Positions 30,290-32,476 of a DNA stretch of 40,098 nucleotides are shown piece after piece. Made by a program: the position numbers and the translations under genes. The notes beneath the pieces were generated by a model, which saw only the letters and a list, made by a program, of their open reading frames with translations, did not search any database and had not been told where the DNA came from. Each line of letters starts with the position of its first letter. Position 1 is the first letter of the stretch. This stretch comes from Deltaproteobacteria bacterium RBG_16_49_23 (GTDB lineage Bacteria; Desulfobacterota; BSN033; UBA1163): assembly GCA_001798855.1 (NCBI GenBank), contig MGQQ01000077.1, forward strand, positions 1-40,098. The letters are read 5' to 3'.

Positions 30290-31489
30290 ATGGCCCAAGA
30301 AAAATTGCTCAGCGGCTGTGCTGCAGCAGCCCAGGGAGCAAAGTTTGCAGAAGTGGAAGTGATCTGTTCATATCCTATTCGTCCCTATACGGCGATCATG
30401 ATGGAGCTGGCCAGAATGGTGGCCAACGGAGAGCTGGATGCCGAGTTCATTCACGGTGAAGGTGAGCATGCGCAGGTTTCAGTGGTCCTGGGGGCTTCGG
30501 CTTCAGGGGCCCGGGCCTATACCGGAAGTTCCGGGGTCGGCGTCACCTACGCATTCGAGGTATACAGCCCGGCTGCCGGGGGGCGCTATCCGCTCCAGAT
30601 GGCGATTGCCGACAGAACACTCGATCCACCGGGTGACTTCGGCTCGGAGCATACGGATGCGATGTCAGCGAGAGATCAGGGCTGGCTTATGGGATGGGCT
30701 GCAACCCCTCAGGAAGTTTTCGACAACACGTTGATCAATTACCGGGTAGGGGAGGATCCCCGGGTGATGCTGCCCCAGTTCGTCTGTCAGGATGGTTACT
30801 TCCTGTCTCACATTCCGGACAAGGTCGTCCTTCCGGAGATGTCCCAGGCCCGGGAGTTTCTTCCCCCCTATAAGGCCCCGCATCCGCTCAGTCCCCTCTG
30901 TCCCGTCTCCCATGGTCCTCAAATCCGGCCGGATCAGGGAGCTCCTATGGATGCGCAGAGAGCGGCCACTTTTCTCGACGTTCCAAAGATCATCAAGGAA
31001 GCCACAGGAGATTTCAACCGTATCTTTGGCCGCGACTATGATCCCTTTCTGGAAAAATACAGAATGGATGATGCCCAGTATGCTTTCTTCATCCAGGGAG
31101 CCCACGCCAATACCTGTAAGTCAGCCATCCGGCACCTCCGTAAACAAGGATTGAAGGTCGGGATGGTGAGGCCGCGATGGATACGGCCCTGGCCAACGGC
31201 CGAGATTGCAGATGCTCTCTCCAAAGTGAAGGCCGTGGCGTCGGTTGAGACGAGCACGTCATACGGCGGCGCAATGAGAGGAGGCAACCTGGTTCATGAA
31301 GTTCGCGCTTCCCTTTATGATCTGCCCAAAAGGCCCATGGTGACCTCTTTCATGGCCGGTCTCGGCGGAGACGTCATCCTCCTCGAAGACTTCTACTATA
31401 TGGCAAAGGTTCTTCAGAAGATGGTAAAAGATAAAAAAACCCATAAAGTGGTCTACTGGATCGGGTTTGAAGAAGAAAAGGAGGAATAA
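30290..31489 (+). CDS. oxalate oxidoreductase-type alpha subunit
   Basis: The 399-residue subunit carries the pyrimidine-binding TPP domain and the transketolase C-like domain of 2-oxoacid:ferredoxin oxidoreductases. The active-site strand reads YPIRPYT at residues 28-34, with Arg31 replacing the Thr of YPITP in pyruvate enzymes. The loop ADRTLDPPGDF (107-117) places Arg109, Asp112, Asp116 and Phe117. As I recall from the Moorella thermoacetica oxalate oxidoreductase structures, Arg31, Arg109, Asp112 and Phe117 are the residues that bind the second carboxylate and form the switch loop. I therefore infer an oxalate-oxidising enzyme (oxalate to 2 CO2 plus 2 electrons). Glu59 for the TPP ring is in GEGEH. 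Another dicarboxylic or 2-oxoacid substrate is possible. Confidence 0.8.
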   Translation: MAQEKLLSGCAAAAQGAKFAEVEVICSYPIRPYTAIMMELARMVANGELDAEFIHGEGEHAQVSVVLGASASGARAYTGSSGVGVTYAFEVYSPAAGGRYPLQMAIADRTLDPPGDFGSEHTDAMSARDQGWLMGWAATPQEVFDNTLINYRVGEDPRVMLPQFVCQDGYFLSHIPDKVVLPEMSQAREFLPPYKAPHPLSPLCPVSHGPQIRPDQGAPMDAQRAATFLDVPKIIKEATGDFNRIFGRDYDPFLEKYRMDDAQYAFFIQGAHANTCKSAIRHLRKQGLKVGMVRPRWIRPWPTAEIADALSKVKAVASVETSTSYGGAMRGGNLVHEVRASLYDLPKRPMVTSFMAGLGGDVILLEDFYYMAKVLQKMVKDKKTHKVVYWIGFEEEKEE

Positions 31490-31492
31490 ACG

Positions 31493-32476
31493 ATGACCCA
31501 AGCGTTCGATTATAAAAAACAGATACTGGAGCCCATCAAGTCCCTGAAGGGCGCCCCGAGAGAGGAGATGTACGTGCCCGGACACCGGACCTGTGCGGGT
31601 TGCGGTCCGGCGCTCAATTACCGGTTAGTTGCAAAGGCGGCCGGACCGAACACGATCTTCATCGGCCCCACGGGCTGCATGTACGTGGCAAATTCGAGCT
31701 ATCTCTGCACGCCTTATGCGGTCTCCTGGATCCATTCCCAGATCACGAATGGCGGCGCGGTCGCTTCGGGAATTGAGGCGGCTTATAAGATTCTTGCACG
31801 CAAAAAGAAATATGACGGTCCTTTTCCAAACGTCATTGTGATGGCCGGCGATGGCGGGTCCGTGGATATTGGCCTTCAGGCCATGTCAGCGCTGATGTAT
31901 CGGGGCCACGATGTCCTCTTCATCTGCTATGACAACGAGTCCTATGCGAACACGGGGATTCAGACCTCTCCGACCACTCCCTATGGGGCGAACACCACCT
32001 TTACTCCCCCGGGCAAAGCCATTCCGGAAGGAAAGGTCCTTTTTCCCAAGGATCCTCCGCAGCTGGTGATCGGAGGTCACCCGGCGGTGAAATATGTCGC
32101 TACCACATGTATCTCTCATCCCCTTGATCTGATGAACAAGGTGCGAAAGGCGTTGAATTATGATGGCCCCACCTTCCTCCACATGCTCGCGCCCTGTCCG
32201 AAGGGATGGAAATTCGATGAGAAACTAAGCCGGGAGATGGGACGGTTGGCCGTCGATACAGGGATGTGGACTCTGTATGAATGGGAGAATGGCGTTTATA
32301 GATACCAGAACCTCCCCAAACAGTATAAAACTGTGGGTGAGTACATGAAATTTCAGGGGCGTTTCTCTCATCTGAAAAAAGAGCATATTGCGAAGATGCA
32401 GGCTTTTGTCGATGAGAAGATCGCAAAGATCAAGGCCATCGCCGTGGAGGCCCCTATCCCGACGCCTAAGGCGTAG
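31493..32476 (+). CDS. 2-oxoacid:ferredoxin oxidoreductase beta subunit (OOR-type), TPP and [4Fe-4S]
   Basis: The 327-residue subunit binds the TPP diphosphate and the proximal cluster. Cluster Cys are in CAGCG (C34, C37), GCMYV (C62) and a later CISHPLDL. The TPP/Mg motif is [11 protein letters not shown] followed by [11 protein letters not shown]. It starts 3 bp after the alpha stop (GGAGG in the alpha 3' end), so translation is probably coupled. It is the last gene of the operon and is followed by a strong intrinsic terminator. Confidence 0.92.

Follow-up and report, generated by a model that had tools for sequence, protein, structure and literature searches.

A predicted oxalate oxidoreductase operon and its CDC48-class ATPase neighbour in a Desulfobacterota genome

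Described systems and the locus under study

Soils and sediments are rich in oxalate, whose anaerobic, ferredoxin-linked oxidation by an oxalate oxidoreductase (OOR) has, to our knowledge, been proven in Moorella alone. In the alpha subunit of this enzyme, we take Asp112 and Phe117 to be residues with assigned roles in the OOR loop. The Moorella thermoacetica OOR is represented by the structures 5c4i, 5exd and 5exe (alpha subunit Moth_1592, beta subunit Moth_1591) and it is credited with a unique YPIRP motif, Arg31, Arg109 and Asp116 are named, and Asp116 and Arg31 are described as a "bait and switch" (PMC5020499). A gut survey omitted OOR for want of information (PMC8062136).

We compared with these systems a stretch of DNA of 40,098 nt (the window) from Deltaproteobacteria bacterium RBG_16_49_23, contig MGQQ01000077.1. 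Its OOR alpha subunit shares with the Moorella enzyme the numbering of residues, the set R31, R109, D112, D116 and F117, and the clade; the gamma and delta subunits, which form one chain in 5c4i, are encoded by separate genes in the window. In the Moorella-like locus L177, with 99.2% identity to 5c4i in alpha, an ATPase gene lies upstream as in the window, whereas the downstream gene is of OxlT type (interrupted in that assembly) and the window has TctCBA instead. Pyruvate oxidoreductase (POR, e.g. 9bt4) is similar to the window enzyme in fold, domains and four-subunit layout, but it has a YPITP motif and falls in a separate clade.

The ATPase upstream has in common with the CDC48/p97/VAT unfoldases (5g4g) an N domain, two AAA modules, Walker motifs and aromatic pore loops, and it differs from them in being bacterial, in its OOR neighbourhood and in forming its own clade. 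The Rubisco activases CbbX and CbbQ and the CoxD/MoxR maturation factors are AAA+ helpers of metabolic enzymes, in which, likewise, an AAA+ ATPase is encoded beside one enzyme needing remodelling; they belong to other AAA+ classes, and we know of no CDC48-class example of a dedicated helper or activase of a metabolic enzyme. No mention of a CDC48 ATPase paired with OOR was found in the literature searched, which is no proof of absence.

With a probability of about 90%, we read the locus as encoding a four-subunit, thiamine diphosphate-dependent OOR accompanied by an oxalate carrier, GntR/FCD control and a dedicated ATPase. The basis of this reading is what was observed, namely the subunit set, the residues, the tree, the neighbourhood and the ATPase clade. 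New here is the presumably OOR-dedicated CDC48-class ATPase, while the enzyme itself belongs to a known family.

The oxalate oxidoreductase gene set and its family

The four subunit genes are all on the + strand, and 5c4i was the top solved match for each of them. The gamma gene (29093..29731, 212 aa) gave 209 bits to residues 13-208 of 5c4i chain B, and the delta gene (29798..30274), of the two-cluster ferredoxin type, gave 102 bits to residues 225-315 of the same chain; the delta start is likely the internal ATG at 29924, which gives 116 aa and matches the delta length of relatives. The alpha gene (30290..31489, 399 aa) and the beta gene (31493..32476, 327 aa, with the thiamine diphosphate domain) are present where the first-pass annotation of this DNA had placed them. 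Alpha scored 507 bits to chain A, with a POR alpha next at 202 bits, and beta scored 510 bits to chain C, with a runner-up at 252 bits, a resemblance to OOR far above chance. The Pfam domains PF01855 and PF17147 (OFOR domains I/II, alpha) and PF02775 (TPP domain, beta) were all above cut-off. Delta has two CxxCxxCxxxC motifs, that is 8 cysteines, and beta has cysteines in CAGC, GCM and PCP, which we take to be the ligands of three [4Fe-4S] clusters, as in PFOR/OOR.

We also scored the four proteins against curated NCBIfam models. Alpha reached 578 bits on the OOR alpha model (cut-off 500) and the gamma gene 239 bits on the OOR delta model NF045790 (cut-off 230); beta, with 559 bits on NF045792, was just below its cut-off of 590. 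The delta gene reached 110 bits on the OOR delta model, which describes the fused form (cut-off 230, part of the model covered), and 78 bits on the general PorD_KorD model (cut-off 60). The expectation that standard annotation would call this a pyruvate or 2-ketoisovalerate enzyme was thus wrong for alpha and gamma, which pass OOR models, and fair for delta, because of its partial coverage of the OOR model and its PorD_KorD pass.

The window alpha is 57.5% identical to that of 5c4i, a level of identity for which the 5c4i fold is to be expected, and since the HMMER alignment pairs residues 4-394 with residues 4-394 of chain A with zero gaps, residue numbers are the same in both. R31 lies within YPIRP, D112, D116 and F117 lie within TLDPPGDF, and R109 is present. 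We compared these sites in an alignment of 69 OFOR alpha rows, from which L011 (the window's own locus), L075, L076 and five duplicates had been dropped, and for which L002 and L008 had no tblastn match when rows were gathered. PIRP and DPPGDF occurred together in 42/42 rows with at least 55% identity to the window and in 0/27 of the others, and PITP occurred in all the 25 rows with less than 40% identity that cover the site (L070 is gapped there). R109 is identical in 69/69 rows and so has no discriminating value; hence, among the residues first listed as diagnostic of OOR, Arg31 in YPIRP, Asp112 and Phe117 stand at the exact OOR numbers and Arg109 was dropped from the set. In a second set, to which Bacillota loci were added, R31, E59, R109, D112, D116 and F117 were conserved in 68/68 clade alpha rows (L057 and L128 in this set are one gene).

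An IQ-TREE phylogeny of the alphas, built on the 67 of the 69 aligned rows with at least 325 aa, grouped the window and 5c4i with 38 further rows, and this clade of 40 has support 100/100. The other 27 rows, belonging to other 2-oxoacid oxidoreductases, were outside it, and among them L017 (44% identity to the window) was the sister row. The host genome has 12 POR_N places including that of the window, and the six others that were placed (L001, L003-L007) were outside the OOR clade. The tree check proposed at first pass, which asked whether alpha and beta belong with pyruvate or branched-chain enzymes, therefore left the OOR-type assignment standing, and together with the top solved matches and the conserved specificity residues it makes membership of the window genes in the OOR family well supported.

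The sister row L017 (also L126, genome G198) belongs to an OOR-like operon in which a GntR gene, the gene of a 380-aa ferredoxin-domain protein, alpha and beta are followed by an aconitase gene; no CDC48 match was found across the 11.9 kb around it. Its alpha has YPIRP with LDDPGAF, that is D at 113 and A at 116. The specificity loop is thus able to drift, as R31, D112 and F117 are kept with A at 116, and the substrate of this operon may differ from that of the window.

The first-pass annotation held that oxalate oxidation by this route is known from very few organisms; the OOR genes themselves were more widespread in our genome survey. Among 395 Desulfobacterota genomes the OOR alpha model matched in 13 at 1e-100, with 8 above cut-off; judged by residues, true OOR alphas are in 9/395, namely these 8 and G226, where the match reaches no further than model residue 242. 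Nine is a minimum, since in G019, G035 and G363 the contig breaks off at an ATPase of the OOR type. In the Bacillota group (the phylum to which G395, the source of locus L053, belongs), 27/348 genomes were above the alpha cut-off. By label, OOR loci are from Thermodesulfobacteriota, Nitrospirota, Methylomirabilota, Betaproteobacteria, Bacillota and, for a few MAGs, other groups, contamination being possible for MAG labels. OOR genes are not rare and are spread across several phyla. No report of OOR in Desulfobacterota was found in the literature searched.

The locus of G226, a single-contig genome (L128/L057), is apparently decaying: alpha is matched only up to residue 238 and the following 8 kb gave no beta, while ATPase, regulator, gamma and delta are still there.

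The separate gamma and delta genes had been regarded as noteworthy, and we dropped them as a special feature. Among the 65 loci with both, a strict frame rule gave 12 fused and 53 separate, so the unfused form is the commoner one and that of the window is ordinary. Three of the 53 are probably fused as well: L181 and L182, with single frames of 305 and 302 aa, and L177, in which gamma-delta is apparently one gene interrupted in that assembly. Every fused locus is either L053 or from its Bacillota phylum.

The CDC48-class ATPase encoded beside the enzyme

The ATPase gene (25879..28041, + strand) encodes 720 aa with an N domain (CDC48_N PF02359, 77 bits) and two AAA modules (PF00004 in two stretches). 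Walker A and B motifs are intact in both modules, and the aromatic pore loops are KFYG and KWLG. The nearest solved protein is the archaeal VAT 5g4g (788 bits). Against TIGR01243 (cut-off 802.65) the window protein scored 801.8, that of L022 802.3 and that of L177 838.9.

An ATPase gene in this place might be a mere operon neighbour with a general task in protein quality and without special tie to OOR. Consistent with this, OOR-unlinked CDC48 genes were found at E 1e-120 in 28/395 Desulfobacterota genomes (those whose CDC48 match is neither OOR-linked nor a cut-off copy) and in 6/348 genomes of the Bacillota group, and by the rule used only four positions separate the linked from the unlinked ATPases, for which reason a clade-specific motif was rejected as an explanation of the OOR ATPases. 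We nevertheless consider this alternative rather unlikely, for the following reasons.

We surveyed the neighbourhood of 67 OOR loci, 55 of which extend 2.4 kb or more above gamma. In 52 of these 55, Moorella-like loci included, the ATPase is on the same strand no more than 1.1 kb upstream of gamma; in two betaproteobacterial loci (L042, L045) it lies 5-5.6 kb downstream, staying near OOR despite an altered gene order. L049 has no ATPase in the locus, and its contig stops after beta. Genome-wide, at 1e-120, ATPase matches occurred in 40/395 Desulfobacterota genomes, including all 9 OOR genomes, in each case beside OOR, and in 32/348 genomes of the Bacillota group, including 26 of the 27 OOR genomes. 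In the OOR genome G418, where the contig ends 720 bp above gamma, no ATPase match was found genome-wide at this threshold.

In an ATPase tree of 102 rows, 59 OOR-linked copies and those of L108, L143 and L144, whose contigs end where OOR would come next, formed one clade (SH-aLRT 99), which contained 0/39 unlinked ATPases. This was a quick tree, with SH-aLRT as its only support and with long-branch warnings for rows including L053, L181 and L131; it was built without L139, L145 and L029 (short) and L194 (no ATPase match). Five genomes (G215, G222, G395, G524 and G678) have both kinds of ATPase, and in each of them the OOR-linked copy falls in the OOR clade. Alpha and ATPase distances were correlated with rho 0.65 (n=56; 1000 permutations gave at most 0.15), species relatedness being ignored in this comparison. 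Conversely, a scan at 1e-8 of the flanks of 41 unlinked CDC48 genes (several of them short) found no OOR-like subunit, whether alpha, beta or gamma; the 42 loci scanned comprised these 41 and the cut-off locus L108.

The linkage between ATPase and OOR is strong, and from it we infer that the ATPase serves OOR specifically, in its assembly or repair. The wider proposal is that OOR in several bacterial phyla, and in Moorella-like genomes as well, needs a dedicated ATPase of the p97/CDC48 class to build, repair or reactivate it; this is tentative, and we would place it slightly short of an even chance. If the link is functional, it would provide a defined client for a bacterial CDC48 protein, and if the proposal is true, OOR would have an activase or repair machine from an AAA+ class that is, as far as we know, new to that role.

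Regulation, carriers and substrate

OOR loci usually begin with the AAA+ ATPase and the GntR regulator, followed by gamma, delta, alpha, beta and a carrier; an epimerase-like SDR is often present as well. Exceptions are the Bacillota loci and some others, where the regulator is ahead of the ATPase or was not found. In the window, the GntR/FCD-family transcriptional regulator (28025..28741, + strand, 238 aa; PF00392, PF07729) starts 17 nt before the end of the ATPase gene, overlapping it. A homologue with at least 26% identity was found in 51/67 OOR loci.

Between the regulator and the OOR genes there is a multi-copy element of 166 bp (28895..29060, no strand assigned) with 21-nt inverted ends that are 81% complementary, and a second copy, 84% identical, lies downstream of beta (32757..32906, no strand assigned). 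The element has 54 matches in the genome, many of them partial, and the two copies flank the gamma-to-beta genes. The gap between regulator and gamma is 355 bp in the window vs 88 bp in L022, a locus of the same genus. Since the element separates regulator and gamma, OOR expression may be altered in the window.

All the three components of a tripartite tricarboxylate transporter are encoded on the - strand 3.5 kb downstream of beta, namely a TctA-type membrane subunit (35989..37509; PF01970, 464 bits), a TctB-type membrane subunit (37537..38013; PF07331, 58 bits) and a TctC-type periplasmic binding protein (38104..39093; PF03401, 99.5 bits). They are inverted with respect to the OOR genes; in L022, TctC-TctB-TctA directly follow beta on the same strand, with a TctA 94% identical to that of the window. 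The repeat elements might be the cause of the inversion. The window has no OxlT gene.

In relatives, the slot after beta is taken by an oxalate/formate antiporter (OxlT), by TctCBA or by a lactate-permease-like carrier (LctP). Of the loci, 51 extend 1.5 kb or more past beta, and among these we found a carrier in 38 (Tct in 17, OxlT in 14 and LctP in 8, one locus being counted twice) and none of the three in 13. An OxlT-like MFS gene occupies the slot in 15 relatives; of seven such proteins scored on the antiporter model TIGR04259 (cut-off 335), five were above cut-off (L034 382, L044 387, L195 450, L179 402, L030 372) and two below (L024 291, L023 297). Two of the five, L044 and L195, are above the cut-off of the L-lactate MFS model NF049980 as well, but score higher on TIGR04259. 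The Moorella-like group itself has OxlT in L177 and L196 and LctP in L173-L175 (identity to the 5c4i alpha of at least 95% for L173-L175 and L177, 92.6% for L196). On a quick alpha tree of 65 of the 67 rows (20 Tct, 15 OxlT and 8 LctP rows), a minimum of 9 switches of carrier type is required (7 are forced for OxlT when starred branches alone count), and some Tct labels are weak (in L131, opposite strand, 5.7 kb, 36%). Such frequent exchange argues for one shared substrate, which for the OOR clade would be oxalate. The TctCBA of the window may accordingly be viewed as a candidate oxalate importer. A Syntrophaceae bacterium is reported to have two oxalate/formate antiporter genes, read as an indirect proton pump (PMC5606693).

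On these grounds oxalate turnover by the window OOR is very likely. An enzyme of OOR fold and clade might instead act on another small dicarboxylate or 2-oxo-diacid, or run towards oxalate synthesis; the Tct family is linked to tricarboxylates and other acids, and the loop of the sister row L017 does vary. We judge this improbable, because the specificity residues are invariant in 68/68 rows, including L177, nearly identical in alpha to the proven enzyme, and because Tct and OxlT carriers swap between close alphas. That the window enzyme acts instead on pyruvate, 2-ketoisovalerate, 2-oxoglutarate or phenylglyoxylate, like oxidoreductases with which it has superfamily and domains in common, is scarcely credible, and for pyruvate, branched-chain and phenylglyoxylate enzymes we ruled it out, as far as sequence can tell, on bit scores, curated models (alpha scores 294 on PorA_Arch with cut-off 550, 250 on the 2-ketoisovalerate model with cut-off 646 and 241 on phenylglyoxylate PadG with cut-off 700), YPIRP in place of YPITP, and the tree, where alpha is outside all PITP rows and the six other OFOR alphas of the host genome group elsewhere.

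For an oxalate-oxidising OOR in the window, we infer the substrate, the direction, the carrier substrate, the regulator signal, the electron sink and the ATPase role as follows. Oxalate would enter by a carrier, probably the TctCBA downstream, and would be held by R31 and R109 in the active site formed by alpha and beta. After attack by thiamine diphosphate, two CO2 would be released in turn, without coenzyme A, while two low-potential electrons would pass through the three clusters to ferredoxin. The reduced ferredoxin could then serve to reduce CO2 in a Wood-Ljungdahl-type pathway or to release hydrogen or formate. The GntR/FCD regulator would control the operon, and the co-produced dedicated CDC48-class ATPase would most likely assemble, repair or recycle OOR.

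The host genome (3.8 Mb, 93% complete) has no oxalyl-CoA decarboxylase above cut-off (best 223 vs 739 bits) and no dsrA match, the control genomes being also below the dsrA cut-off; because of the completeness of the genome, both absences are provisional. It has two places above cut-off for the CdhC/AcsB family. This combination fits a host that uses ferredoxin as an acetogen or a syntroph does, and the natural reading would be that ferredoxin passes the electrons of oxalate to a Wood-Ljungdahl pathway or to a syntrophic use.

The arrangement of ATPase, GntR, gamma-delta-alpha-beta and OxlT, Tct or LctP provides a usable genomic signature by which possible oxalate oxidisers could be sought in uncultured Desulfobacterota, Nitrospirota, Methylomirabilota and Betaproteobacteria.

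Some further genes were observed around OOR. A TauE-type exporter gene (24902-25756) lies ahead of the ATPase gene in the window; its cluster was found in 3/37 loci (the window, L034 and L036), so we do not count it among the regular components of OOR loci, and it is occasional at most. A gamma-glutamyltranspeptidase-like gene is near OOR in eight loci (L026, with PF01019, L028, L127, L131, L181, L187, L188 and L189). Among the betaproteobacterial loci, L045 and L048 have a second OFOR alpha close downstream, 34-35% identical to the OOR alpha, and L042 and L045 have an OFOR delta-like match close downstream of OOR.
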